Origin: an archaeon
Lineage (GTDB): Archaea > Thermoproteota > Nitrososphaeria > Nitrososphaerales > Gagatemarchaeaceae
Reading direction: 5' to 3'
Length of the DNA stretch: 64,000 nucleotides
Assembly (NCBI GenBank): GCA_021827865.1
Contig: JAKAUC010000013.1
Span: 124,001 to 188,000 of the forward strand
Shown piece by piece: positions 6,182-45,967 of this stretch; positions within the stretch are counted from its first letter, which is position 1; each line of letters starts with the position of its first letter. The position numbers were made by a program, and so were the translations under genes. The notes beneath the pieces are model-generated. The model was given only the letters and a program-made list of their open reading frames with translations. It was not told the origin of the DNA and made no database searches.

Positions 6182-6652
6182 TCACTCGGCGTATCTCTTT
6201 CCGATGTATCCCAGGGTGGCGCCCCAACAGGCGTAGCCTATGGCCAGTGCGGCCAGAGCCAACAGCGCGCCTGACAGGGACAGTGACAGGAGCGTCCCGT
6301 TCAGCGCAGGGGTGCTCACCAGAGCGAATGCCGCGGCCATCACCAGGAACGCCAGGCCTGCGACGCTCATGCCCTTCGTGACAGAGTATGTCGTGAAGCC
6401 GAAGGCGAAAATCAGGCCCCACGCCATCCCCATGGCGACCCACTCCCCGAGGCCATAGAGCGCCGCCCCGGCGGCGAAACCTGAACCGCCGAAGAGACCA
6501 CCGACGGCTGGTAGCCAAGCGAATTGCATGATGCCGAGGGCGCTGAGCGCCACGAAGCTGAACCCCATGACGATGCACCCGGCCAAGCCTCCGACAAGGC
6601 CGAGGCTCACCCTGGACTTCGGCGACAGGAGCCCTCCTCGAGGCTGGGTCAT
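6182..6652 (-). CDS. Small polytopic membrane protein linked to cytochrome b
   Basis: 156 residues with about five hydrophobic segments and many Ala/Gly residues (SLGLVGGLAGCIVMGFSFVA near the N-terminus). I do not recognise the family. Its ATG at 6652 overlaps the stop of the cytochrome b gene as ATGA, so it is translated with it, and it shares the palindrome-controlled promoter. A subunit or assembly factor of the membrane electron-transfer module is a reasonable guess. A longer in-frame start at 6733 lies inside the cytochrome gene and is rejected because the added residues are Gly/Arg-rich and soluble. Confidence 0.6.
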   Translation of the reverse strand: MTQPRGGLLSPKSRVSLGLVGGLAGCIVMGFSFVALSALGIMQFAWLPAVGGLFGGSGFAAGAALYGLGEWVAMGMAWGLIFAFGFTTYSVTKGMSVAGLAFLVMAAAFALVSTPALNGTLLSLSLSGALLALAALAIGYACWGATLGYIGKRYAE

Positions 6653-7503
6653 GGCCGCTCGACCTCCTCCCGCCGTAGCGCCGCTGCTGGCATGGGCGCC
6701 CCGAGGGTAGGCTTCAGGTTGGCCACGGGCCACCTGTCGGCGTCAAACTCGCTCTCGTACTCCTCCTTCGAGAGGGTCCCGGTGGCCATGGAACGAAGGA
6801 TGGGCCAGTTCACCGGCAGTACTGCGAAGTAGATGTGACCCAGTATCAGCCCCACGAACAGGAACGCGAAGACGTCGTGGAACAGCCTGAGGGTGTTCAT
6901 GAAACCTGGGGCGACGGCTGGGAGGAGCCCGTAGGGGTTCCAGAGATAGATGCCGGAAATGCCCAGAACGACGAACGAGAGCGCAGTCCCCCAGTGGAAG
7001 ACCTTCATGAAAGGATCGTACTTCGGGGACCGTGGGTACTCCTTCGTGGCGCCGAAGAAATTCTTCAGGCGCACTCCCGTGTCGCTGAAGTCCCTTCGCC
7101 CGGGCCATATGTTGTGCCAGCCCCGGGCCACGGCCAGGTCCCAGGCAACGTGAATTACCACCATTCCAAGCAGCACCCAGAGGAGGGTGGTGTGCCAGAA
7201 CAGGCTGTCTGCGACGCTGGATATGCCGAAGGGGGCGAGGAACCAGCCTAGGACGCCAGGAGCGAAGATGTCTATGCCGGTGAATGCGACGAGCCCCAAC
7301 ACCACGAAGAGGGACCAATGGAAGAGCCTCTGCACCGTGCCGAAGGCCTTCACGTTCTCCCCCGGCACCTCCACGGCCGTCGTGGGTTTCTGTCGGACTG
7401 GCTCCCTGAACGATCGCCTCAGCCAATGGATGGCGAAGAACGCTCCGAAGAGCACCAGTATCCAGACGGCGTAGTCCAGAGGCAGCTGGAAGAGGGCAGA
7501 CAT
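6649..7503 (-). CDS. Membrane cytochrome b (b561 / formate dehydrogenase gamma type)
   Basis: A multi-spanning haem protein. Candidate haem-ligand histidines sit in VQRLFHWSLFVVLG, FWHTTLLWVLLG, VFHWGTALSFVVLG, LRLFHDVFAFLF and GLILGHIYFA, the pattern of dihaem cytochromes that pass electrons from exported dehydrogenases to quinone. The context points to the Tat-exported molybdenum hydroxylase at 14-18 kb as donor, because both promoters carry the same palindrome. ATG 7503 lies about 29 bases after the TATA centre. An ATG at 7515 is only 17 bases away and too close. The earlier open frame (to 7638) would read through the promoter. Confidence 0.82.
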   Translation of the reverse strand: MSALFQLPLDYAVWILVLFGAFFAIHWLRRSFREPVRQKPTTAVEVPGENVKAFGTVQRLFHWSLFVVLGLVAFTGIDIFAPGVLGWFLAPFGISSVADSLFWHTTLLWVLLGMVVIHVAWDLAVARGWHNIWPGRRDFSDTGVRLKNFFGATKEYPRSPKYDPFMKVFHWGTALSFVVLGISGIYLWNPYGLLPAVAPGFMNTLRLFHDVFAFLFVGLILGHIYFAVLPVNWPILRSMATGTLSKEEYESEFDADRWPVANLKPTLGAPMPAAALRREEVERP

Positions 7504-7529
7504 CCGCTTCTGCATGCTCCATGCTGCTC

Positions 7530-7537
7530 TATATTTC
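7530..7537 (-). promoter_or_regulatory. TATA core (GAAATATA) of the cytochrome b operon
   Basis: The minus strand reads GAAATATA, centred about 29 bases before ATG 7503. Exactly five bases separate it from the palindrome at 7543-7560, the same spacing and core as at 18129-18159. Confidence 0.65.
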
Positions 7538-7542
7538 GAATT

Positions 7543-7560
7543 GCCCGAATGTGTTCGGGC
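7543..7560. promoter_or_regulatory. 18-bp palindromic operator (GCCCGAA-N4-TTCGGGC), copy A
   Basis: A perfect inverted repeat with 7-bp arms and a 4-base centre, just upstream of the TATA core of the cytochrome b operon. A second copy at 18142-18159 has the same arms apart from the outermost base pair. Its position upstream of BRE/TATA suits an activator. The likely binder is the HTH-10 protein at 12294-12929, by context only. Confidence 0.7.
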
Positions 7561-7643
7561 TCCCTTCAGGGAACACTGCTCGAGTCGTGAGGATGGCGCA
7601 CGACATCCGACGGAGATAAGAACCTCCCTCCGGACCACGGGCC

Positions 7644-8351
7644 ATGGACATCCAGGCGCCCCAGGGCTCTTCGGCGAAGCTCACGCGAGCGGGGGCCATC
7701 CCCGGGGGGGAGCGGTGCTTCGCATCGATCGTCGTCCTCGCCGCGGGGCGCTCCACCAGGTTCGGAAGGAACAAGATGCTCGAACCAATGGGGAAGACCT
7801 CCCTGATAGAGAAGGTGGTCTCGGAGTCGCTCGGCTCCAAGGCGAGGCAGGTCATAGTGGTGGTCGGCCATGCCTTTGAGGCGATGCGCTCGAAGCTCCA
7901 GGGGTACGCCTGCGAAATGGTCTATAACGAAGAGTTCGAGTCGGGACAGAGCTCCTCCGTCAGGAAAGGCGTCTCGAGGGTCAGCGGCCGCGCCGACGCG
8001 GTCATGATCCTCCCCGGGGACATGGTGCTCATGGAGCGTAGCATCATAGACGCGGTGATCGACGAGTACGACAGGACCCGGGCTCCGATAGTGAACGCGG
8101 GCTACGAAGGGAGGCAGGGGCACCCGATACTCTTCGACAGGTCCCTCTTCGGCGAACTGGCGGGCATCGCTGAGCCCACGAGGGGGCTGAAGGCAGTGGT
8201 GGCGCGCCATTCGGCAGAAGTGGTCACCGTGGAGACGTCGCTGGCGGCGGTCCTCGACATGGACACCCCCGGGGACTTGGCCCGTCTCGCAGAGGTCTCT
8301 CCCGGAGGCAGAGCGGAGACCTCGGGCAGCCACAGGCGACCTAGAAACTGA
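7644..8351 (+). CDS. MocA-like molybdenum cofactor cytidylyltransferase
   Basis: A nucleotidyltransferase of the MobA/MocA fold. The nucleotide-binding loop LAAGRSTRFGRNKML begins at about residue 32, followed by the metal-binding LPGDMVLM and the MocA-type GRQGHPILF. MocA joins CMP to molybdopterin to make the MCD form used by hydroxylases of the xanthine oxidase family, so it would serve the enzyme encoded at 14-18 kb. The first 25 or so residues are unlike the family, and an internal start could be used. It overlaps the convergent DsrF-like gene by 11 bases. Confidence 0.82.
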   Translation: MDIQAPQGSSAKLTRAGAIPGGERCFASIVVLAAGRSTRFGRNKMLEPMGKTSLIEKVVSESLGSKARQVIVVVGHAFEAMRSKLQGYACEMVYNEEFESGQSSSVRKGVSRVSGRADAVMILPGDMVLMERSIIDAVIDEYDRTRAPIVNAGYEGRQGHPILFDRSLFGELAGIAEPTRGLKAVVARHSAEVVTVETSLAAVLDMDTPGDLARLAEVSPGGRAETSGSHRRPRN

Positions 8352-8694
8352 GGGTGACGTCCGCGGCCGACATCATCTTCCAGATCTCCTCGCGAGGAGC
8401 AACCGAGAAGCCCTGGTCCAAGTCGGACTCCATGAAACCTTCCTCGGCAAGGGATTCGCGTTCCACATGCAAGGCGCCGCCCACGACCATTTCTGTCAGG
8501 GACCCCAGCATGCGGGCGGAGTAGGCGCGGTCGACCCCCTTCAGGGCCGACCTTACGCCCTTCCCCATGAACGCCACGTAGACCTCGTGCTCTTCGTCTC
8601 CGCTCAAGATACCGAGGGAGGCTCTGATCCCTTCGATGTAGTACCCCGTCCCCACGGGAGACTTCAGGAAGCAGACGAAGACCTTTTTCTTCAT
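8341..8694 (-). CDS. DsrE/TusC-like sulfur relay protein
   Basis: 117 residues of the DsrE/DsrF superfamily: an N-terminal strand KKVFVCFLKSP, then a helix with IEGIRASLGI, then EHEVYVAFMGKGV. It is the last gene of a three-gene set (8981-9334, 8704-8970, 8341-8694), matching the DsrE, DsrH and DsrF subunits of TusBCD-type complexes that accept persulfide from TusA. No cysteine sits at the usual active-site position, as in TusC. Assignment to the C rather than the D subunit rests on this and on gene order. Confidence 0.65.
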   Translation of the reverse strand: MKKKVFVCFLKSPVGTGYYIEGIRASLGILSGDEEHEVYVAFMGKGVRSALKGVDRAYSARMLGSLTEMVVGGALHVERESLAEEGFMESDLDQGFSVAPREEIWKMMSAADVTLSF

Positions 8695-8703
8695 CTTGAA
8701 GCC

Positions 8704-8970
8704 TCAGAGCAGATTGACGACCTTCTCCTCCTCCATCAGACTGACAAGGTCTGGATATCCGACCACGCGCACCCCGGCGGGGACCCTGGCCTCGAGGCCT
8801 CTCCGGACCAGATCTTCCCTCAGGACGTACACCATCCCCTTGACCTCTCCTCCCAGGGCCGCATAGACCGCGTCCTGCAAGAGAAAGACCCGGGCCGTAG
8901 GATCCTGCGATGCGTAGAGTTTCGCCACTCCGACGGCAGGCTCGTCGACAAGGTACACGGTCACGCCCAT
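8704..8970 (-). CDS. DsrH/TusB-like sulfur relay protein
   Basis: 88 residues with the DsrH/TusB pattern: VTVYLVDEP at the N-terminus, VFLLQDAVYAAL in the middle and a C-terminal strand with LVSLMEEEKVVNLL. TusB/DsrH forms the third subunit of the heterohexameric sulfur carrier. It lies 9 bases from the downstream DsrF-like gene and 10 from the upstream DsrE-like gene, so the three are one operon. Confidence 0.65.
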   Translation of the reverse strand: MGVTVYLVDEPAVGVAKLYASQDPTARVFLLQDAVYAALGGEVKGMVYVLREDLVRRGLEARVPAGVRVVGYPDLVSLMEEEKVVNLL

Positions 8971-8980
8971 GGACCTCCGC

Positions 8981-9334
8981 TCATAGGGTCAGGACCCTGT
9001 CGCACTTCGCCACCATCTCCGAAACGAAGGCAGCCCCGGCCACCTTGACCCCCTTCAGGTAGCCGGCGCCCTCCTCCAGGCCCCTGTTGTTGGTACAGAC
9101 TTCGCAGGCGAAGACTTCCGCCCCCCGCTCAATCATTGAAGCAAAGCGGTCCTTGGGGAGTTCCTCCATTGCGGGGAATCGCTGGGCGGCCAGGGCGTTG
9201 TACACTCCATCCATGAAGAGGAAGAAGCTCACCTTGTCAGACCTGTCCAGGGCTCCCTCGGCTATGAGGCAAGCCGTCTCCCACCTCTGGGTCTGGTAGG
9301 GGGACCCAGTCAGGATGATGCCAAAGTAGGTCAA
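8981..9334 (-). CDS. DsrE/TusD-like sulfurtransferase subunit
   Basis: Begins LTYFGIILTGSPYQTQRWETA, the DsrE-family opening in which the first strand leads into the nucleotide-like loop. FLFMDGVYNAL follows, then FACEVCTNNRG, which places cysteines where TusD/DsrE carries the persulfide-accepting Cys. TTG 9334 is chosen over a longer frame to 9403 because the added residues are not family-like and because a CTTAAAC box sits about 34 bases upstream. Predicted role: passing sulfur from TusA toward cofactor sulfuration or another acceptor. Confidence 0.68.
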   Translation of the reverse strand: MTYFGIILTGSPYQTQRWETACLIAEGALDRSDKVSFFLFMDGVYNALAAQRFPAMEELPKDRFASMIERGAEVFACEVCTNNRGLEEGAGYLKGVKVAGAAFVSEMVAKCDRVLTL

Positions 9335-9363
9335 AGGCTGCGACCCTGCCCCAGGGGCAAAGT

Positions 9364-9372
9364 GTTTAAGCG
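9364..9372 (-). promoter_or_regulatory. TATA-like box of the DsrE-H-F operon
   Basis: The minus strand reads GCTTAAACA, about 33 bases before TTG 9334. It lacks the palindrome found at the cytochrome and hydroxylase promoters. Confidence 0.4.
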
Positions 9373-9543
9373 CTGCGGAGCGGTTTCCTCTCTGGCGGTC
9401 CACCTCGGGGGGCGGGTCCCAGAGTTTGCGCCTTTCGTGCCAGAGCCTTCGACCTAGGCCCAGTCAGGCCGGACGCGCATCGCAGCGGATAATAATCGGG
9501 GCGACGGCTGCGCGCCGAACCGGGAGGATTGGAGGAGCCACAG

Positions 9544-10071
9544 ATGGCGGAAGCGAAAGAAGGCTCAGAGAGCAGGTCAGTGCTGATCTTCGAGCACTTC
9601 AGGGATGGGATGAGGGCCGAGGACATCCTGATGGGATCAGGGTTCCACACGAGCTCCGGCTCCCCGCCGCCTCAGGTCAGGACGGGCTGCGACCTCGCCA
9701 TCTCAGTCCCCAGCGCCGACACGGCGGCAGCCGAGAAGGTGCTGAAGGAGCACGGCATATCAGTGATGGATGTGATCTTCAAGTTCGAAGGGGGTATGCG
9801 CGAGCTCCAGATCAGCAAGCTGGTGAAGACGGTGGACTACGGCGACTACGCCATGGTTAGGGTAGGCAACATGAAGCTCACCTTCAGGAAGTCGGACGGA
9901 GTCATCTCCAACGTCTCGGGGGGCGGATGCCCGGACATCCCGCTGCTGGCGGCCAAGCTGGTCGGGGCAAGGCTCGAGGACGCGACCCCCCCTGCCCAAG
10001 TGGGGTTCACACTCTGCGCCTACACCCTGCAGAAGGCCTACGAGATAGCGTTGAGACAGAGGAAGCGGTAA
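9544..10071 (+). CDS. DUF3343-like (putative Se/S carrier) protein with C-terminal extension
   Basis: Residues about 15-80 resemble DUF3343: SVLIFEHFRDGMRAEDILM, then RTGCDLAISV. This family is placed near selenium/sulfur handling genes and molybdenum hydroxylases. The C-terminal half (from about residue 85) is not recognised; it has GGGCPDIPLLA and LCAYTLQ, giving three cysteines in all. ATG 9544 has GGAGGAG a few bases upstream; a TTG at 9529 is the alternative. It starts a plus-strand operon with the NnrD-like gene, tusA, xdhC and the HTH-10 regulator. No selD is present, so sulfur is the more likely cargo. Confidence 0.55.
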   Translation: MAEAKEGSESRSVLIFEHFRDGMRAEDILMGSGFHTSSGSPPPQVRTGCDLAISVPSADTAAAEKVLKEHGISVMDVIFKFEGGMRELQISKLVKTVDYGDYAMVRVGNMKLTFRKSDGVISNVSGGGCPDIPLLAAKLVGARLEDATPPAQVGFTLCAYTLQKAYEIALRQRKR

Positions 10072-10075
10072 CCGT

Positions 10076-10945
10076 TTGCTCATGCTCTCGGGGACGCTCC
10101 CCACGGCGGACGGGGACATCATGGTCGGGCCCGTGAAGTACGGCCGCGGGTCCATGCACATCGGGGAGCGGAGCATCCCAGAGGAGGCGCTTTCCATCGG
10201 GGCTACGGCGATGATGGCTGCCGCCGCGGTGGTGGCCGAGGCCATCGGGGAAGAGCCGCCCATGGCAGTCGTGTCAGGGGACCTGGGGGACGGGGCGGGT
10301 TCGAGGAAGGTCTACCGGTTCCTGACCGAGGAAGCTGGGGGCATCGGGGCGTCGGTGGTGACCTTGCACTACGTCCTGCCCCTAAGGACCGAGTTCCTGG
10401 ATTTCGTCGAGATGGCCGACTATTGGGAGAAGAGGCCGTTCCTGATAGCGGACGCTGGCGCCCTGTTGATAGCCAAGGCCACCGGTCTCTGCACCAAGTT
10501 CGACCTCTTCACCCCAGACGCCGGCGAGATGGCATTCTTGGCCGACCCGGACGCAGGCCACCCGGCGTATGTGAAAGCCTCCCTCTTCGAGGTCGACACC
10601 ATGGAGGTGCCCCGGCTGATAGCGGAAGCCCACGCGGCGAACAACGCCCCCAGGTACCTTGCAGTGAAGGGGCCCGTCGACTACGTCGCGGAAGATGGCA
10701 GGGTGATTCACCGGATCTCGGAGCCTGACGTGCCCGTGCTGGAGGCCATAGGCGGGACCGGAGACACGGTGACCGGGGCGGTCTCGGCCCTGATCGCCGG
10801 TGGGATCAACCCAGTCAGGGCCAGCCTGGTGGCCCTGAAGGCGAACCGCGTCGCCGGCGAGCTCTGCCATCCCACGCCGGCCACCAGGGTCTTCGAAATC
10901 GTCGACCGCCTGGGGGCGGCGGTTGCCGACGGGCTGGACTCCTGA
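10076..10945 (+). CDS. Ribokinase-fold NnrD-like (ADP/ATP-dependent NAD(P)H-hydrate dehydratase-like) protein
   Basis: Shares the NnrD/YjeF C-terminal pattern: LIADAGALL, then FDLFTPDAGEM (compare DADAL and TPHPGE), then YLAVKGPVDYV and IGGTGDTVTGAVSALIAGG, with the catalytic GTGD. True NnrD repairs hydrated NAD(P)H, but the N-terminal 90 residues are atypical and no NnrE epimerase domain is attached. The gene sits 4 bases after the DUF3343-like gene inside a Mo-cofactor maturation operon, so a role in that pathway is possible. TTG 10076 or ATG 10082 may be the start. Confidence 0.6.
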   Translation: MLMLSGTLPTADGDIMVGPVKYGRGSMHIGERSIPEEALSIGATAMMAAAAVVAEAIGEEPPMAVVSGDLGDGAGSRKVYRFLTEEAGGIGASVVTLHYVLPLRTEFLDFVEMADYWEKRPFLIADAGALLIAKATGLCTKFDLFTPDAGEMAFLADPDAGHPAYVKASLFEVDTMEVPRLIAEAHAANNAPRYLAVKGPVDYVAEDGRVIHRISEPDVPVLEAIGGTGDTVTGAVSALIAGGINPVRASLVALKANRVAGELCHPTPATRVFEIVDRLGAAVADGLDS

Positions 10946-10991
10946 CCAGCGCGTCCCCTTTGGAGGCTAACCTGTTCGGGTCAGGACTCAA

Positions 10992-11342
10992 ATGGAGGCG
11001 AACGATCACCAGCGGCCAGTGACTCTAGGCAGCGGAGCCCCCATGGGCAGAACGGAGGAGGGGGCCTCCGTGGTCGACTGCAGGGGTCAGCTCTGCCCCA
11101 AGCCGATATTCATGACCAAGGGCGCGCTGGCCAAGGGGAGCATTGGGGACATGTTCGAGGTGATAGTGGACGATGACGGCTCGAAGCAGAACGTCCTGCG
11201 CTACTGCTGGAACCACGGACAGGAGGTGCCCCGGTCCTATGCCGCCGGTCGGGAGTTCCACATCTTTGTCAGGAAGTCACCCGAGAAAGCGAGCGAAAAG
11301 CCTCTCCCAGCCGTCGGCCCCTGCGGGACCAGGTGGGACTGA
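10992..11342 (+). CDS. tusA: TusA-family sulfur carrier protein
   Basis: The TusA signature is clear: VVDCRGQLCPKPIFMTKGAL, with the sulfur-carrying Cys in CPKP. The core is about 75 residues, and a C-terminal tail of some 25 residues follows. ATG 11043 (MGRTEEG) gives a more typical N-terminus than 10992 and may be the true start. TusA carries persulfide between cysteine desulfurases and acceptors; here the neighbours are a DsrE-type trio and XdhC, the protein that sulfurates the molybdenum cofactor. A TTCGGGT half-site lies upstream at 10976-10982 without a matching left arm. Confidence 0.85.
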   Translation: MEANDHQRPVTLGSGAPMGRTEEGASVVDCRGQLCPKPIFMTKGALAKGSIGDMFEVIVDDDGSKQNVLRYCWNHGQEVPRSYAAGREFHIFVRKSPEKASEKPLPAVGPCGTRWD

Positions 11343-11432
11343 TACGTGGAGGTTGACTGATAGACGCAGGACTTCTACAGCTTTGTCAGCGAAAAGACGG
11401 GCCGAGGGATCAGGGTCACGGTCGCTTCGGTC

Positions 11433-12239
11433 TTGGAAGCCGACGGGTCGGTCCCAAGAGGGCAGGGGACCAAGATGGCCATCCCCGAAGTGGGGCCCGT
11501 CTGGGGGACCGTCGGAGGTGGCTGCGTCGAGAAGTACATCATCAGAGAGGCGAGGTTTGTGTTCCAGGACGGACAGACCAGGGTCAAGGAGTTCGACCTT
11601 GGCGACGGCAGCTGGAGCGGCATCGGCATGTCCTGCGGCGGGAAGGTGAAGATGATGCTCGAGCTGGTCGAGCCCCCCGAGAGGCTGGTGGTCTTCGGCT
11701 CGGGAGGGATCTCTCAGGCCTGCGCCCAGATAGGCCACATGTTGGGATACAAGGTGCTGGTGATGGACCCCTTCGCCACCAAGGAGCTCTTCCCCGATGC
11801 GGAAGTGGTCACCCAGGGGGTCTTGCACAGGCTGAAGGAGATGGTCTTCACCCCCTATGACAACATCCTGATACTCACGGAGCACAGGTACGACATCGAA
11901 GCCCTTCAGGCGGTCCTGGGCTCCCAGGCGCGCTTCATAGGCATGATAGGCAGCAAGAACCGAGTGAACACGTCCTACAAGGAGCTGATCGAGGCCGGCG
12001 CGCCTCTGGAGAAGTTGCTGTCGGTCTACGCCCCGGTAGGCCTGGACATAGGCGCGGTCACGCAGCAGGAGATAGGATTGAGCATAATGGCCGAGGTGGT
12101 GCACGCGCGCAGGGGCGGGAGCCTGGGCCACCTGCGCCTGGTGAAGCTGCTGGAGAGGTCTGAGAAGACCCACGAGGCCAAGAAGGTCGACGGCGGAGAG
12201 CCAGGGGGGGCGGCGAGGGAACGGAGCATTGCCCGCTAG
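11433..12239 (+). CDS. xdhC: XdhC-family molybdenum cofactor sulfuration/insertion protein
   Basis: XdhC binds MPT/MCD, promotes its sulfuration and delivers it to hydroxylases. The sequence shows SVPRGQGTKM and GTVGGGCVE of the N-terminal domain, the cysteine of GMSCGGKV, a Rossmann domain from LVVFGSGGISQ, RFIGMIGSKNR, and APVGLDIGA near the C-terminus. The listed start is a TTG, but homology continues upstream in the same frame to about 11364 (DFYSFVSEKTGRGIRVTVAS) with no standard start codon. In-frame TGA and TAG lie at 11358-11363, so either initiation is unusual or one base is missing near 11369. Confidence 0.82.
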   Translation: MEADGSVPRGQGTKMAIPEVGPVWGTVGGGCVEKYIIREARFVFQDGQTRVKEFDLGDGSWSGIGMSCGGKVKMMLELVEPPERLVVFGSGGISQACAQIGHMLGYKVLVMDPFATKELFPDAEVVTQGVLHRLKEMVFTPYDNILILTEHRYDIEALQAVLGSQARFIGMIGSKNRVNTSYKELIEAGAPLEKLLSVYAPVGLDIGAVTQQEIGLSIMAEVVHARRGGSLGHLRLVKLLERSEKTHEAKKVDGGEPGGAARERSIAR

Positions 12240-12293
12240 CAGGCGCGGCTCGGCGCCGCTTCGTCCGGACGGCCGGGGGGAGGGCCGGAGGCC

Positions 12294-12929
12294 ATGATCA
12301 GGGAGGTGGCTCTTGAGGCGGACGACGCGCGGGAGTGGACGAGCGCCATCAGGGGGGCCCAGATCAACGTGAGGGTGGTGAGCTGCAGGCCCGATGGCCC
12401 CAGGGGGATGCTCCAGTTCATAGCGATAAGCAGCCGCGAGCCAGTGGCCAAGATGCTGAAGGCCATCTCGTCCCATCCCAACGTGAGGCTCACAGACCTG
12501 GTAAGGACCAACGACCACAGGGCGTCGGGGCTTGTCGTGACCAAGAACTCCCCATTCTGCAGGACCGTCGCCGAGATGAAAGGATTCTGCCTCGGCTGTT
12601 ACTACTCCGACGCCGTCAAGCTGAGGCACAGCCGGCGCGTGATCTTCGAGTCTGGGGTGTCGCTCAGCAAGGTGCTGCGCAGGCTCAAGGAGCGGGGCGT
12701 CGCCGGCGCCGTGAGGGGGGTGGAGAATCTCAAGGGGAACGACCTGCTGACCTTCAACCAGGAAGAGGCGCTGAAGCTGGCCGAAGCGATGGGCTACTTC
12801 TCCCTCCCCAGGAAGGTCAGCATAAGGCAGCTTGCGGCGATCCTTGGCATGGCGCCGTCGACCTTGGATGAGGTGTTGCGGCGGGCGGAAGGAAAGGTGG
12901 TCTCCCGCTACACGAGTGAACCGGGCTAA
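12294..12929 (+). CDS. HTH-10 (Bat-type) archaeal transcriptional regulator
   Basis: The C-terminal 50 residues are a helix-turn-helix of the bacterio-opsin-activator type: LTFNQEEALKLAEAMGYFSL, then RQLAAILGMAPSTLDEVLRRAE. The N-terminal domain carries a cysteine set (FCRTVAEMKGFCLGCYY, about residues 84-100) that could bind metal, sulfur or an iron-sulfur centre. It closes the maturation operon, 54 bases after xdhC, and is the only DNA-binding protein in the molybdenum hydroxylase region. It is therefore the best candidate for the palindrome at 7543 and 18142. Effector unknown. Confidence 0.78.
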   Translation: MIREVALEADDAREWTSAIRGAQINVRVVSCRPDGPRGMLQFIAISSREPVAKMLKAISSHPNVRLTDLVRTNDHRASGLVVTKNSPFCRTVAEMKGFCLGCYYSDAVKLRHSRRVIFESGVSLSKVLRRLKERGVAGAVRGVENLKGNDLLTFNQEEALKLAEAMGYFSLPRKVSIRQLAAILGMAPSTLDEVLRRAEGKVVSRYTSEPG

Positions 12930-13351
12930 GCGCTAGGCTTGTCGACGGTCAGGGTCCCCCTCTTGATGTCGAACTCGAACCTGAAGTGCTTCAGGAACGA
13001 CCTACCCAGGACCAGGTCAAAGGGAGCTGCCCTAGGCAAGTCCAGGTCGACCAGCACGGTCTCCACGTCCTCGGCGACCATCGTACCGAGCGAAACCTCG
13101 TTCAAGGTCAGCAGCACGCCTCTCTCGATGCCCCGGAAGTCCAGGACGTAGCGCGCCATCTCCGGATGCACCTTCTGCCACTGCTTGGAGCGGATGCCTG
13201 CCTCGTTGTACCCCAGGGCGAGGGCGTCCCTGGAGAGGATCATGCAGTACTCCGAGTTGAAGTCGAGTATCGAGGCCAGCTCCCTGACTACGCCGTTGCG
13301 GCCCTTGACCCGGCTGAAGAACGTCATGGAGTCCCTTAGCGTCAGCTTCAT
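12926..13351 (-). CDS. Retropepsin-like (clan AA) protein B
   Basis: 141 residues with the retropepsin-like half-fold: a beta-hairpin KGRNGVVRELASI, an LDFNSEY loop where active enzymes have D-T/S-G, and the C-terminal PFDLVLGRSFLKHF typical of clan AA proteases (compare D-x-LLG-x-x-FL). The loop keeps Asp but not the Gly, so activity is doubtful. It is a tandem paralogue of the next gene upstream, overlapping it by 4 bases, and the last gene of the exported hydroxylase operon. It meets the HTH-10 gene end-to-end with a 4-base overlap. Confidence 0.62.
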   Translation of the reverse strand: MKLTLRDSMTFFSRVKGRNGVVRELASILDFNSEYCMILSRDALALGYNEAGIRSKQWQKVHPEMARYVLDFRGIERGVLLTLNEVSLGTMVAEDVETVLVDLDLPRAAPFDLVLGRSFLKHFRFEFDIKRGTLTVDKPSA

Positions 13352-13770
13352 CGCATACCACCTGAGGCCTTCCGGAGGCTCAACCGGTGCGACCCGTAGT
13401 CTATCTCCAGCGTCAGGCCCTTGAGCAGGCTCCTGCCCAGCACCACGTCGAAGCCGGCCGCCTGCAGGACGTCGAAGGCGATGAAGTCGACGTCCTTGAA
13501 CGACGTGCCCCCGATCTCCACCTCGGCCATCTTGACCGGGAGGCCTCGGCCGTACCCGCTGTAGGTCGCGAAGTGGACGGGGTTGGGGCTCAGGGCCCTG
13601 GCGTCCGCGCCCGCAGCCTCGGGATAGCCCAGGGCGAAGGCGTCCACCATGGGGACGACGCAGTAATCCGTCGTGGGGACGATGACGGCCTTGTACTCGC
13701 GCGCTACGCCGTTGCGCCCCTTCAGGCGCGCGAAGACGGTGGGAAGCTCCTGGAAGCTCCGCTGGATCAC
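13348..13770 (-). CDS. Retropepsin-like (clan AA) protein A, catalytic loop degenerate
   Basis: 140 residues aligned throughout with protein B: LKGRNGVAREYKAVIV, then VPTTDYC in the active-site loop, then GFDVVLGRSLLKGL. Pro stands where protein B has Asp, so the catalytic residue appears lost unless the nearby Asp of TTDY acts. Its GTG start overlaps the stop of the DUF5678-like gene (GTGA), so translation is coupled. Possible roles are a structural or inhibitory partner of protein B, or a non-proteolytic binding fold. Confidence 0.6.
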   Translation of the reverse strand: MIQRSFQELPTVFARLKGRNGVAREYKAVIVPTTDYCVVPMVDAFALGYPEAAGADARALSPNPVHFATYSGYGRGLPVKMAEVEIGGTSFKDVDFIAFDVLQAAGFDVVLGRSLLKGLTLEIDYGSHRLSLRKASGGMR

Positions 13771-14006
13771 AACATCAGGTGGAAAGGAGAGTCACCAGCG
13801 AAGAAGATGCAGATGTCGGGGTAATTCGACAGCTTCCTTCTCAGCCTATAGCGGTCGACCTCGTCGGCCACGACTGTCCCTCTGGTGGGCTGGAGGCTTT
13901 CGTCGCGCTCGGTGACGGTCACGGCAACCCACCTGCCCGCGTACTTGGCCGCAATCTCCTCGAACGACAGGTCGGCGGGCTGCTCGGCGACGGTCGAAGG
14001 ACTCAC
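13767..14006 (-). CDS. DUF5678-like small protein
   Basis: 79 residues. The pattern FEEIAAKYAGRWVAV, a Val/Ala-rich strand and a C-terminal DICIFFAGDSP resembles DUF5678, a short domain that often accompanies prokaryotic retropepsin-like genes, as here. It starts at GTG 14006, 19 bases after the FAD-subunit gene, and ends inside the start of retropepsin-like A. Function unknown. Confidence 0.5.
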   Translation of the reverse strand: MSPSTVAEQPADLSFEEIAAKYAGRWVAVTVTERDESLQPTRGTVVADEVDRYRLRRKLSNYPDICIFFAGDSPFHLML

Positions 14007-14025
14007 GGAGGGCGCCCACCCGATC

Positions 14026-15045
14026 TCAGGAGGAGATGCCGCGGAGGGCGTACTTGACCGCGCCCTTGGCCAGGAGGACCCTGAATGAGTTGCCGGTCCC
14101 CTCGGTCAGGGGGGTCGCGCCTGAAAGGGCGTCGTCTGCCGCCTGCGATATGACGCTTTCCGACAGAGTCTTTCCGGTGAGATACCCCTCAGCCGACGTC
14201 GCACGGAGAGGTTTGTTCGCCACCGCCCCCAGCACGAGCCGGACCGACGAGAGGGCGCTCCCGCTGAACTCCGCGCTGACTGCGGCGCTGGCGAGGGCGA
14301 AGTCGAAGGCGCCGCGGTCCCTCACTTTGTAGAACGCGGACTTCGTCCCTGAGGCGGGAGCCGGTATGTGGAACTCCGTCAGTACGTCGTTGTATGCCAG
14401 GCTGTTCTCTTTGACGCGCCCGTCCACGATGCTGACGCCTGGCAACAGCTGATCCATGGTCACGGTCCTCTGCCCCATGGGGCCGGAGACAGTCGCCTCT
14501 GCGCCCAGCGCGAAGAGGGCCGGCGCCACGTCCCCGGAATGGACCGCGTAGCAGAGGTTCCCGCCGAAGATGCTGTGGTAGTAGCGGTTGTCCCCGCCCA
14601 GGGCCGCGTAGCAGAGGTTCCCGCCGTTGCGCCAGCACCCCGGGTAGCTGTTCCGCAGGTACCAGCACCATGTCTCCTGCAGGACGTCGCCGGCGATGGT
14701 CGCCTGGTTCCTGATCTGGGGGCTCCCCACAAGGCCGGCCGCCTGGGCCAGCGCGGCGAACACCGAGGTCACGTTCGGGTCCGCGGACACGGTGGTCAAG
14801 GACGTGGTGGCGCCTATCCTCAGCCCGTCGCTGTCGGAGTAGCGGACGTAGTCCAGCCCGAGGCTGGATATGTCGACGACGTACTGCGGGGTGAGCGCCG
14901 TTATCCCGTTCTTCATCTGGGTCAACACGTCCGTGGCGCCGCCGATCACCTTCGCCTGGTCGCCGTACTTGGTCAGCAGGGAGACCGCGTCGCCGACGGA
15001 GCTCGCCTGCAGGTACCCGAACTTCGGAACTTCGGATGTGCTCAT
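14026..15045 (-). CDS. Mo hydroxylase FAD-binding subunit with [4Fe-4S] insertion
   Basis: Medium subunit of a xanthine oxidase-family hydroxylase. The FAD-binding PCMH domain begins FGYLQASSVGDAVSLL with the KVIGGATDVL loop, and PQIRNQATIAGDVLQ contacts FAD. A cysteine-rich stretch follows (about residues 130-170: ETWCWYL, YPGCWRN, GGNLCYAAL, GGNLCYAVH). This matches the extra [4Fe-4S] cluster segment known in PaoB/YagS-type subunits and 4-hydroxybenzoyl-CoA reductase. It passes electrons between the [2Fe-2S] subunit and FAD. The gene sits 13 bases after the large subunit. Confidence 0.85.
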   Translation of the reverse strand: MSTSEVPKFGYLQASSVGDAVSLLTKYGDQAKVIGGATDVLTQMKNGITALTPQYVVDISSLGLDYVRYSDSDGLRIGATTSLTTVSADPNVTSVFAALAQAAGLVGSPQIRNQATIAGDVLQETWCWYLRNSYPGCWRNGGNLCYAALGGDNRYYHSIFGGNLCYAVHSGDVAPALFALGAEATVSGPMGQRTVTMDQLLPGVSIVDGRVKENSLAYNDVLTEFHIPAPASGTKSAFYKVRDRGAFDFALASAAVSAEFSGSALSSVRLVLGAVANKPLRATSAEGYLTGKTLSESVISQAADDALSGATPLTEGTGNSFRVLLAKGAVKYALRGISS

Positions 15046-15058
15046 CTCAATCCACCCC

Positions 15059-17383
15059 TCACGACGTCCCCTGGGACTGCATCCACTGGATGGCGGCGAC
15101 CAGGTCCTCGCGCCTTATGGGAAGGCTGGAGAACCTGTATCCGCCCAGCGCGTTGCTGATGGCGTTGGCTATGGCCGCCCCTGCAGCGGTGATCGAAGGC
15201 TCCCCGATCCCCTTGGCCCCGAACGGGCCCGTGGGGTCCTGAACCGACTCCACCAGGACAGGCGTGTGCGAGTCTGGGGCCTCCATTATGGTGGGGACCT
15301 TGTTGTCGTTGTAGTTCGGGTTGAGATAGCCGCCGGACCATGGCAGGCCGCTGGACGTGTCGTGGATGGTCTCCTCGTAGAGCCCGGCCCCGATGCCGAG
15401 ACCGACGAACCCCCCCTCGTTCTGGGCGCGGGCGCCCTTGTACCATATTATCCTGCCCATGTCGAGCCCGCTGACCGAGCTCACCACTCTGACGTCCGCT
15501 GTGTCCACATCCACCTCCACCTCTACGATCTTGGGGCCGGTCACGCGGTGCGCCTTCGCGTACCCCGCGAGGACGAAGCCGGTGGCGTTTCCGTAGACCT
15601 TGAGCGGCTGGCTGAGCAGGGCCGCCGCGTCCTTGAACGCCATGGAGTTGCTGGGATTGGTGGTGTCGTATATGGTGTCGTTGCCGAAGGCCAGGTTCGA
15701 TGCCTGGGTCCCCGCGGCCAGCTTGGCTGCCACGATGGGGAACCACTGCTTCCCGAGCTCCCCGGCCGCAGCTATCATCCCGTCCCCGCCGTTCCTGGTC
15801 CCCTCGCTCCCGAAGGTCCCCATGGAGTCTGTGTTGATGGAGGTGTCGCCGGAGTAGTAGGTGACGTTGTCCAGCGAAGTCAGGCCCAGCGCCGCCGCCC
15901 CCATGATGGGGATGGTGGTCGTGGTCCCTGCACCCTGGTCCACTTGGCCGTCGTACAGCTCCACGGACCCGTCGGGATTGACCTGTATCTGCGCCGTGGA
16001 AGGCGGGATTGTGGAGCCCTTGTTGTCGCTCATGTAAGCGATGCCCACCCCCCTCCTCTTGGATCCGTTCACTGAGCTGGGGACCCCCCAGCCTTTCCAC
16101 ATCGACGACCAGCCGAAGGCCGTCAGGCACTGGTTGAATGTCTCGGGCTCGGCAAGCTCGGCGTAGGGAGTATTGGCCACCGGGTCGACGGCGTTCGCGC
16201 TGGTGCGCATGTTGTTCAGCCTGAAGGTGGCGGGGTCGATGCCAAGCTTCTCGGCCAGCATGTCGATGGTGGTCTCCATGATGAAGTGGCACTGGCTCTC
16301 GCCCACGTCCCTCATGGGTGCCCCGACTCCGTAGGAGTTGGTGTTCGTGGCGTAGGCGTCCAACTGGAAGTTAGGCACCGCGTAGGCGTTGTAGAAGTCG
16401 TCGGTGCCGTCTATGAACGCGCCGCCGCGGGCGCCGAAGTCGAAGTAGAGGGTCACCTGCATGGCCGTGAGCGTCCCCGCGCTGGTGGCTCCGAACTTCG
16501 TGTAGCCCCTGATCGGGAACCGGGCCGTGGAGTTCAGGGCGTTGTCAATCCGCCTGGCCACGTACTTCACCGGGGCGCCGACCTTCCTCGCCATCACCGC
16601 CGCCAGGATGTCGTAGTCCCCTCCTGTGCTGTTCCCGAACATGCTGCCTGCGGCGCTGTTGGTGGTCCCCCCCAGCCCCTCCCTGACGACCACGTCCGAC
16701 AGGGGCAGCCCGAAGTAGGACGCCAGGTTCGACTGGTCACCGAAGACGTAGTTAGATTTCTTCCACACGTACAGAGTCCCGTCGTTCCAGTAGGCGGTGG
16801 TGTTGACAGGCTCCAGGTCGAAGTGCTGATGGTAGCCTGACTCCAGCGTGGCCTCCACGACCACGTCGGACTGGGAGAAGCCAGCGCTGACGTCCCCGAA
16901 GGAGATGTGCTGCGGCGCGGGCAGGAGCGAATTCCCTCCCTCCCAAATCTGAGGAGCGCCCGGCTGCAGCGCCGCCTCGACGTCGAAGACGTAGGGCTGC
17001 GGCTGATACTCCACGTCCACCAGGTTCACGGCGTCCTCCACCTCGTTGGGAGAAGGAGCGCCCACGGCCGCAACGGGCTGGCCCGCGTAAATCACGGCGT
17101 CGCTGGTCACCGGGAGCCAGGAGCGCCCCCCTGCGTAGTAGTCATAGGCCGCCAGGTCGCTGCTGGTGATGGTGACATAGCCGGCCGCCTGAGCCTTGCT
17201 GACGTCCAGCTTCGTGACCTTGGCGCTGGGGTAGGGAGAGATGACCAGCCCCATGTAGACCATGTTGCTCGCCCCGATGTCGGCGGTGCTGATGTCCGAG
17301 GGGTAGCGCCTCTGGCCCGTTATTCTGGCCAGCAGGTCCCTGTTGACCACGTTCTGGTTGCCGATGAGCCCCGACTGAGACAT
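15059..17383 (-). CDS. Mo hydroxylase large (molybdopterin-binding) subunit, PaoC/YagR-like
   Basis: 774 residues of the aldehyde oxidase/xanthine dehydrogenase large-subunit family. The active-site Glu lies in GPFGAKGIGEPSIT near the C-terminus. The loop equivalent to PYRGAGRPE of other members reads GVGAPMRDVGESQCHF, so the residues near molybdenum differ from those of the second enzyme at 61 kb. The protein has no signal of its own; it would be carried across the membrane with the Tat-bearing small subunit. Substrate cannot be read from the sequence; aldehydes or N-heterocycles are typical for exported relatives. Confidence 0.88.
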   Translation of the reverse strand: MSQSGLIGNQNVVNRDLLARITGQRRYPSDISTADIGASNMVYMGLVISPYPSAKVTKLDVSKAQAAGYVTITSSDLAAYDYYAGGRSWLPVTSDAVIYAGQPVAAVGAPSPNEVEDAVNLVDVEYQPQPYVFDVEAALQPGAPQIWEGGNSLLPAPQHISFGDVSAGFSQSDVVVEATLESGYHQHFDLEPVNTTAYWNDGTLYVWKKSNYVFGDQSNLASYFGLPLSDVVVREGLGGTTNSAAGSMFGNSTGGDYDILAAVMARKVGAPVKYVARRIDNALNSTARFPIRGYTKFGATSAGTLTAMQVTLYFDFGARGGAFIDGTDDFYNAYAVPNFQLDAYATNTNSYGVGAPMRDVGESQCHFIMETTIDMLAEKLGIDPATFRLNNMRTSANAVDPVANTPYAELAEPETFNQCLTAFGWSSMWKGWGVPSSVNGSKRRGVGIAYMSDNKGSTIPPSTAQIQVNPDGSVELYDGQVDQGAGTTTTIPIMGAAALGLTSLDNVTYYSGDTSINTDSMGTFGSEGTRNGGDGMIAAAGELGKQWFPIVAAKLAAGTQASNLAFGNDTIYDTTNPSNSMAFKDAAALLSQPLKVYGNATGFVLAGYAKAHRVTGPKIVEVEVDVDTADVRVVSSVSGLDMGRIIWYKGARAQNEGGFVGLGIGAGLYEETIHDTSSGLPWSGGYLNPNYNDNKVPTIMEAPDSHTPVLVESVQDPTGPFGAKGIGEPSITAAGAAIANAISNALGGYRFSSLPIRREDLVAAIQWMQSQGTS

Positions 17384-17389
17384 CGCCTA

Positions 17390-18106
17390 TCACGCGCCTC
17401 CTAGGTTCGTGGCTGCGGTCTGGATGGATTCGATTATCTTGAGGTAGTTGCCGCAGCGGCAGAGGTTGCCCGCCTGGGCGGCCTTTATCTCGTCCACTGT
17501 GGGATTGGGGTTCTGCTTCAGGAGGGCAGCGGCAGACATTATCTCGCCCGGGCTGCAGAAGCCGCACTGGCCCCCGTCGTTCTCCACGAAGGCGCTTTGG
17601 AGCGCCGCGACCACCGGGTCTGCGGCGGGCGCGCCACTGGCGGTGCTCTGCACCCCCGCTTCGGTGGTCAGGATCTGTTTGCCCACAGCCCTTAGTGCGA
17701 TGTACTGGCAGGCGTTGTAGGGGGCGTCATCGATCAGGACTGTGCAGCCGCCGCACTCCATCCGGTTGCACGGCCTCTTCGTCCCGATCAGACCGATGCT
17801 GTCCCTTATGACGTTGACCAGCATGTCCCTCGGCTCGACGGTCACCGGGTAGTCCACCCCGTTGACGTTCAGGGTGATGGCCTGCGGAGCGAAGGGGTCT
17901 GTCGTGGTCGCGGTCTGGGTGGTCTGGGCGATCTGCAACGCTTGGCGTCCGTCCTTGCTGTCCAGCGCCAAGACAGACCCTCCGACGATTACACCCGCCG
18001 CCAGGCTGGCTTTCACAAATCCGCGCCTGCTCACTTTCACGTCCCACTCGGGCGCATCCGCCTTCGCAGCGGCGTGACTCCGGTTCTGCTTCCCCTTCCT
18101 GCTCAC
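17390..18106 (-). CDS. Mo hydroxylase [2Fe-2S] subunit with Tat signal
   Basis: 238 residues. A twin-arginine signal SRRGFVKASLAAG followed by a hydrophobic stretch occupies residues about 26-50. Next comes a plant-type [2Fe-2S] ferredoxin domain (CNRMECGGCTVLI, with a fourth Cys in YNACQY), then the second [2Fe-2S] domain (CGFCSPGE and CRCGNY). Folded S, M and L subunits would be exported together, as in periplasmic PaoABC. GTG 18106 lies 26 bases after the TATA centre, so the transcript is probably leaderless. It is the first gene of a six-gene operon ending with the retropepsin-like pair. Confidence 0.9.
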   Translation of the reverse strand: MSRKGKQNRSHAAAKADAPEWDVKVSRRGFVKASLAAGVIVGGSVLALDSKDGRQALQIAQTTQTATTTDPFAPQAITLNVNGVDYPVTVEPRDMLVNVIRDSIGLIGTKRPCNRMECGGCTVLIDDAPYNACQYIALRAVGKQILTTEAGVQSTASGAPAADPVVAALQSAFVENDGGQCGFCSPGEIMSAAALLKQNPNPTVDEIKAAQAGNLCRCGNYLKIIESIQTAATNLGGA

Positions 18107-18128
18107 GTTGAGAAGGAGGAAAGGCCGT

Positions 18129-18136
18129 TATATTTC
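18129..18136 (-). promoter_or_regulatory. TATA core (GAAATATA) of the exported Mo hydroxylase operon
   Basis: Identical in sequence and in distance from its palindrome (5 bases) to the core at 7530-7537. It lies 26 bases before GTG 18106. Confidence 0.68.
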
Positions 18137-18141
18137 CCAAT

Positions 18142-18159
18142 ACCCGAACAAGTTCGGGT
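18142..18159. promoter_or_regulatory. 18-bp palindromic operator (ACCCGAA-N4-TTCGGGT), copy B
   Basis: A perfect inverted repeat, 7-bp arms with a 4-base centre, upstream of BRE/TATA for the hydroxylase operon. It shares CCCGAA-N4-TTCGGG with copy A at 7543-7560. A small plus-strand frame starts 10 bases to its other side. Confidence 0.7.
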
Positions 18160-45854: not shown

Positions 45855-45967
45855 TGGCTCCCGTGAATCGCTACCAGCCCTGCAGGGTATGAAAGCGTTG
45901 TCCCCGAAGACCGCGAGGAGAGGGGGGCCGCCCGAAACTGTTCGGCTGGGGATGACGAGAAACCCAC

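Follow-up and report, generated by a model that had tools for sequence, protein, structure and literature searches.

In an archaeal genome, a palindrome followed by a TATA-like box lies ahead of two operons, one headed by a cytochrome b gene and the other encoding a molybdenum hydroxylase, which raises the question of which protein recognizes this element and whether both operons respond to it together. We analyzed the stretch of 64,000 nucleotides that carries them (the window), the genome sequence as a whole, and genomes of the same class. Between the two operons lie genes for MobA-like, DsrE/DsrH, Se/S-carrier-like, Carb_kinase, TusA, XdhC, and HTH_10 proteins. The features of the region are as follows.

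6182..6733, minus strand: 183-aa gene after cytochrome b, without a Pfam match; it has the same position after cytochrome b in the related genome G361
6649..7515, minus strand: cytochrome b (Ni_hydr_CYTB, PF01292), start at ATG 7515 or 7503
7530..7537, minus strand: BRE/TATA-like GAAATATA of the cytochrome b operon, separated by 5 bases from its 18-bp palindrome
7544..7559, minus strand: putative palindromic operator CCCGAACACATTCGGG of the cytochrome b operon, 18 bp with its flanks (7543-7560)
7644..8351, plus strand: MobA-like NTP transferase transcribed away from cytochrome b; visual inspection places a TATA-like box of its own near 7612-7620
10965..10980, plus strand: weak third match GGCTAACCTGTTCGGG, directly upstream of TusA, with a score inside the Markov-control range
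11433..12239, plus strand: XdhC/CoxI-type gene for Mo-cofactor maturation, preceding the HTH_10 gene in the same direction
12294..12929, plus strand: HTH_10 regulator, candidate operator-binding protein, HTH_10 at residues 152-203
12926..13770, minus strand: tandem pair of ~140-aa proteins after the FAD gene, without a Pfam match
14026..15045, minus strand: Mo-hydroxylase FAD subunit, from Pfam domains (FAD_binding_5, CO_deh_flav_C)
15059..17383, minus strand: Mo-hydroxylase large subunit, from Pfam domains (Ald_Xan_dh_C, MoCoBD_1, MoCoBD_2)
17390..18106, minus strand: Mo-hydroxylase [2Fe-2S] subunit (Fer2_2), with a twin-arginine N-terminus (SRRGF) and a GTG start
18129..18136, minus strand: BRE/TATA-like GAAATATA of the hydroxylase operon
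18143..18158, minus strand: putative palindromic operator CCCGAACTTGTTCGGG of the hydroxylase operon, 18 bp with its flanks (18142-18159)

In each of the ten operons of this hydroxylase type that were fetched with their flanks (window, L112, L165, L169-L174), the FAD gene is followed by such a pair of ~140-aa proteins.

The promoters of the two operons

Scanning the window revealed CCCGAA-N4-TTCGGG palindromes at 7544-7559 and 18143-18158, both on the minus strand. On that strand, the cytochrome b promoter reads GCCCGAACACATTCGGGC-AATTC-GAAATATA and the promoter of the [2Fe-2S] subunit gene (FeS gene) reads ACCCGAACTTGTTCGGGT-ATTGG-GAAATATA; in both, the 18-bp palindrome is followed by five bases and then by GAAATATA, with identical spacing. 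These positions bear out the original prediction that one palindrome-TATA module precedes both operons, with five bases between the palindrome and GAAATATA. The start codons had been placed 26-29 bases past the TATA centre. This is correct for the FeS gene, whose GTG at 18106 lies ~26 nt past the TATA centre and 51 nt from the palindrome start, but for cytochrome b the distance is 29 nt only if ATG 7503 is used, and ~17 nt with the in-frame ATG 7515 (55 or 43 nt from the palindrome start, respectively).

A promoter matrix was built from five promoters, the two of the window and three of G361, so that the window sites, which scored 45.7 and 45.1, had helped to train it; the next match in the window reached 9.8, and 20 Markov versions of the window gave 17.3 at most. 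No strong site was detected in the checked promoter regions of the other window genes, including the HTH_10 gene. At 45931-45946, the window contains the palindrome CCCGAAACTGTTCGGC, with one mismatch, and a TATA-like pattern is absent there at the usual distance.

The base composition of the window (GC 0.636) predicts 0.22 palindromes and 9e-7 full modules for the 1,935,541 bases of the genome (1.94 Mb). Four exact palindromes were observed, against one for the reversed-pattern control, and two full modules, which are the window pair, against none for the reversed control; no third full module appeared in the genome when up to 3 mismatches were allowed. Exact copies thus number only a few; many of them scattered through coding DNA would have spoken against the prediction. 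The third exact palindrome (C13:309865) is followed by a CTTATC box, and 49 nt from its start begins a 515-aa ORF that encodes an Ig-like domain; the fourth (C20:47960) has no TATA-like pattern nearby. Palindromes with at most one mismatch are hardly in excess in the genome (22 versus 15 in the reversed control), and with at most two mismatches the window has 9 versus 5.2 expected, a number reached by 11 of 100 shuffles. The signal is the exact copies with fixed TATA spacing, not the loosened palindromes.

Conservation in related genomes

We searched 400 genomes of the class, drawn from a larger group, and a genus sample of 31 genomes with a completeness of 48-100%. Matches to the cytochrome b at 1e-10 or better were present in 21 of the 400, the own genome included; outside it, identity above 50% was found only in G361, which is likewise the sole such genome among the 45 others of the family. 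G361 represents another genus of the same family, and the proteins of its cluster are 34-64% identical to those of the window. Its contig C101 carries two hydroxylase operons, a cytochrome b operon, and an HTH_10 gene, and the module precedes all three of the corresponding operons at the spacing seen in the window (CCCGAACGCGTTCGGG-CATTTGGTGAAATA, CCCTAATACGTTCGGG-GAATTGGACATATA, and CCCTAACTGGTTCGGG-TAATTAGAGATATA), with one arm reading CCCTAA in two of them. In the five promoters of the window and G361, the constant elements are CCC, AA, TTCGGG, and the spacing up to the TATA box, and the surrounding DNA varies. Relatives that keep both operons had been expected to keep the sites as well; G361, the sole such relative found and hence the one informative case among genomes that are drafts, many of them incomplete, keeps the module at all three starts.

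This conservation already contradicts the reading that the palindromes arose by chance and have no regulatory role, a reading to which the near-background numbers of loosened palindromes could lend some weight. With two full modules where 9e-7 were expected, and their retention at three of three G361 promoters, we consider chance extremely improbable, in line with the earlier argument that the agreement of the two modules could hardly be accidental.

Two of the G361 operators (L112, 8541-8556 and 17624-17639) have TATA-like boxes on both sides at a similar distance, which suggests one site for two divergent promoters. Within the genus, cytochrome b at E 0.001 or better was found in 3 of 31 genomes, namely the own one and two others with identities of 31 and 36%, and this hydroxylase is kept only by same-species sequence; FeS homologues with 53-57% identity belong to a paralogous operon with a different promoter. 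In a same-species contig (L031) and in genome G044 (62% complete), the FeS site is unchanged and the cytochrome b site is not seen. No exact CCKAA-N4-TTMGG was found in the stretches fetched for six other cytochrome b loci (L114-L119, 34-37% identity) or in that of the hydroxylase locus of G363 (L174).

HTH_10 genes and palindromes across the class

The protein encoded at 12294-12929 matches HTH_10 (PF04967) with an E value of 2.8e-16 (59.5 bits, cut-off 23.1), and in a Pfam search at E up to 0.001 this was its sole domain, with no GAF or PAS/PAC. Among the 400 class genomes, its best match is in G361 (7e-43) and the next one is at 9e-26; the own genome contains six HTH_10 genes. The window and G361 regulators share cysteines spaced C-x9-C-x2-C in the N-terminal part, the first of which is invariant in an alignment of 26 members, the other two being placed differently in part of the family. 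The AlphaFold model (mean pLDDT 89.6) predicts beta-alpha-beta units followed by the HTH. A structure search with this model returned no informative PDB relative (the first by E-value was a metallopeptidase, TM 0.25, followed by Ta1207, TM 0.41), and a profile search of PDB sequences gave implausible matches only (sodium-channel subunit, E 0.01). The recognition helix has D (TLDE) in the window and G361 regulators and S (TLSE) in most aligned homologues. A TLDE switch as the cause of CCGAA over CCTAA was considered and rejected, given the C18 paralogue of the own genome, which shares TLDE and has CCTAATCCATTAGA as the site nearest to it. No site was found at the promoter region of the window HTH_10 gene itself; the HTH_10 gene of G361 has a near-match, CCCGAACAGATTGGGG, and then a TATA box, ~310 nt upstream.

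Inverted repeats (arm length 4, 5, or 6 bases, spacer length 0-12) were scanned from 200 nt upstream to 10 nt into 30 HTH_10 genes (the best loci of the 400-genome search) and in three control regions. With 5-base arms, CCTAA-N4-TTAGG was the commonest dyad (13 of 30 genes), the next independent dyad occurring in 3 and the controls giving at most 2; with 4-base arms, the same dyad was present in 14 genes, followed by the independent GATT-N12-AATC in 7 of 30. When half-sites CC(G/T)AA were accepted, 18 of the 30 genes had a site, and the window and G361 genes were among the 12 without an exact one. Twelve of the 18 positive loci come from the own family and six from families f12, f14, and f20, so that these counts are not independent.

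The geometry of the window promoters recurs at these loci. At 26 sites (L122-L149), 12 of the 52 sides have a TATA-like tetramer that begins 8 nt past the palindrome, and offsets within 5 nt of this one gave 0-4. We also surveyed 59 ORFs of at least 140 aa that begin near 102 site-sides in the window and the fetched loci: ATG or GTG lies 48-56 nt from the palindrome start in 22 of them and at exactly 51 nt in nine, the window FeS gene included. The distances within 5 nt of 51 gave 0-4 cases each, and elsewhere only 99 nt reaches 5. The distance of 51 nt fits a leaderless start downstream of a TATA box.

Motif-to-control ratios were obtained for 158 of the 400 class genomes, counting as HTH_10 homologues those with E 1e-12 or better to the window protein. 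In the own family, the 22 genomes with a homologue contain 254 motifs versus 110 controls, and the 12 without contain 56 versus 59 (p = 0.009). The ratio is 0.73 with a homologue (14 genomes) and 0.56 without (33 genomes) in the rest of the order (p = 0.03), and 0.49 (10 genomes) and 0.46 (27 genomes), respectively, in other orders (p = 0.29). Family f10, with 40 genomes and no homologue in any of them, has a ratio of 0.20; G316, an f10 genome outside those 40, has 15 motifs versus 5 controls. The genome-wide excess is thus clear in the own family only, and the association beside HTH_10 genes spans four families.

The ORFs that adjoin the palindrome at HTH_10 loci of the class include a hemerythrin and a cupredoxin (L127) and a V4R protein (L131), and in L143 a DUF2249-cupin gene lies across the palindrome from the HTH_10 gene. 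At four loci of the genus (L131, L136, L142, L146), the palindrome separates the HTH_10 gene from a divergent ORF (V4R in L131) whose start is 51-52 nt away, with TTAA 8 nt past the palindrome. A second inverted repeat like GATTTCC...GGAAATC is present on the HTH_10 side of the CCTAA palindrome, for example in L136, L139, L140, and L141.

Palindromic operators beside the TATA box serve other archaeal regulators too, and the element could accordingly belong to a regulator of another family with a similar sequence preference. We regard this as improbable: CCTAA-N4-TTAGG is the commonest 5-base-arm dyad upstream of HTH_10 genes, the motif is in excess in the HTH_10-bearing genomes of the own family, and the window sites fit a haloarchaeal motif that, in the papers cited below, occurs near bacterioopsin-activator genes.

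The proposed regulator and its haloarchaeal counterparts

We propose that the palindrome is probably the operator of an HTH_10 (bacterioopsin-activator/NarO-like) factor, most likely the product of 12294-12929, which would activate both operons together as leaderless transcripts. From the sites, their spacing, their conservation in G361, and the association of the palindrome with HTH_10 genes, all of them read from sequence, we infer binding, dimerisation, activation, and a signal in the following manner. A dimer would occupy the pair of CC(G/T)AA half-sites, always 8 nt from the BRE/TATA box, and would there touch TBP/TFB and help them to bind. The operons of the exported Mo-hydroxylase and the membrane cytochrome b would then switch on together, and the cytochrome b may take electrons from the hydroxylase. 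The signal would probably be redox, oxygen, or metal, sensed via the conserved cysteines. An activating role had been suggested from the upstream position of the palindrome, and both its location upstream of BRE/TATA and the leaderless distance agree with it. This model would give the HTH_10 family a concrete operator consensus and a rule for its spacing beyond haloarchaea, would place a Mo-hydroxylase and its cytochrome b in a single regulated unit, and would make regulon prediction possible in uncultured archaea from sequence alone.

The same operator could instead serve a different HTH_10 paralogue among the six, or several of them, as part of a wider HTH_10 regulon and not of a private unit. 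The own genome has 20 CCKAA-N4-TTMGG sites versus 4 reversed controls, and the same geometry occurs elsewhere, at the ORF with the Ig-like domain (+49 from the palindrome start) and at an OsmC-like ORF (+51), with another site 22 nt before a COX2-like ORF. Two observations make this alternative unlikely: CCCGAA/TTCGGG with GAAATATA at this spacing is confined in the genome to the two window promoters, and among the 400 class genomes a homologue better than 1e-26 was found only in the two that have the cluster and the module. The proposal of one regulator and one functional unit gains from the presence of an HTH_10 gene in both clusters and from the palindrome at 18 of 30 HTH_10 genes; since the genome encodes six HTH_10 proteins, and since the palindrome also occurs elsewhere and so is no private feature of the unit, the proposal is likely, not proven. 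The 515-aa ORF at C13:309865 (L175) and a distant 606-aa ORF at C13:15751 (L176) have similar exported-looking N-termini, the Ig-like domain being in the former, and both are preceded by a palindrome of this kind and GGCTTATC.

The closest counterpart of the element is in haloarchaea. The denitrification promoters of Haloferax mediterranei are reported to share the semi-palindrome CGAAYATDKTYG, whose mutation significantly decreased the activity of the nos and nor promoters, not significantly that of nir, and not at all that of nar (PMC10062603). Of the induced genes that carry the motif, one is reported to encode a bacterioopsin activator and two to encode DUF2249 proteins, and the authors name NarO and DmsR as related activators (PMC11218638); no NarO homologue was found in H. 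mediterranei, and bacterioopsin-activator-like proteins are suspected as the regulators (PMC11218638, PMC10062603). The window sites fit CGAAYATDKTYG at 11 of 12 positions, the mismatch being one central spacer position. The window sites and the haloarchaeal motif have in common the CGAA-N4-TTCG core, the 4-base spacer, a short distance upstream of the start codon (66-79 nt from the ATG at nir, nor, and nos, and 319 at nar, in H. mediterranei), and the presence at respiratory or redox genes and at DUF2249 genes, with a bacterioopsin-activator gene in the nirK/nor cluster of H. mediterranei. In contrast, the window sites are flanked by CC/GG, have a CCTAA/TTAGG variant and a fixed TATA distance, and belong to another archaeal group and to a Mo-hydroxylase/cytochrome b cluster. 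The likeness of the sites supports shared ancestry or a shared recognition rule, as judged from their sequences.

By published descriptions, the window protein resembles NarO and DmsR, activators of nitrate and DMSO respiration, in a Bat-like C-terminal HTH, the lack of PAS/GAF, and a gene adjoining the target operon (PMC11218638, PMC10062603, PMC1447603); they are activators, and the same role is here proposed for the window protein. Similarly, the system resembles Bat and the bop UAS of Halobacterium in having an HTH activator and a common upstream site at several promoters of one regulon (PMC1447603, PMC2253796). Unlike the window protein, Bat is described there with GAF and PAS/PAC domains, and its activation of bop may be indirect (PMC2253796). 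With an HTH_10 gene in the cluster, a CGAA-N4-TTCG repeat, and sites directly ahead of the core promoters of several operons, the module appears to belong to the HTH_10-linked kind of Bat, NarO, and DmsR. Among the literature titles and abstract openings listed, none reported the motif for this class.

Another Mo-hydroxylase operon of the own genome (L165, C13:738000-757900) carries CCTAACGCGTTAGG at 7783-7796 and CCTAACCGGTTAGG at 13364-13377, 5.6 kb apart, each directly downstream of a TATA-like box. At this operon, CCTAACCGGTTAGG lies between the TATA box and the start codon, and a protein bound there would more likely block than help; should the same protein family act there, the position would set the sign of regulation. 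Tentatively, and as a possibility rather less probable than the activation model itself, HTH_10 proteins of distant archaea may read one ancestral operator, CC(G/T)AA-N4-TT(C/A)GG, which would activate leaderless genes when located 8 nt upstream of TATA and would repress when it follows TATA and precedes the start codon, the arrangement at the paralogous Mo-hydroxylase operon of the genus. If true, redox regulation would follow a common cis-code from haloarchaea to this class. An element matching CCTAACCGGTTAGG is also present in G024 and G004, and one matching CCTAACGCGTTAGG in G013 (L171, 4930).
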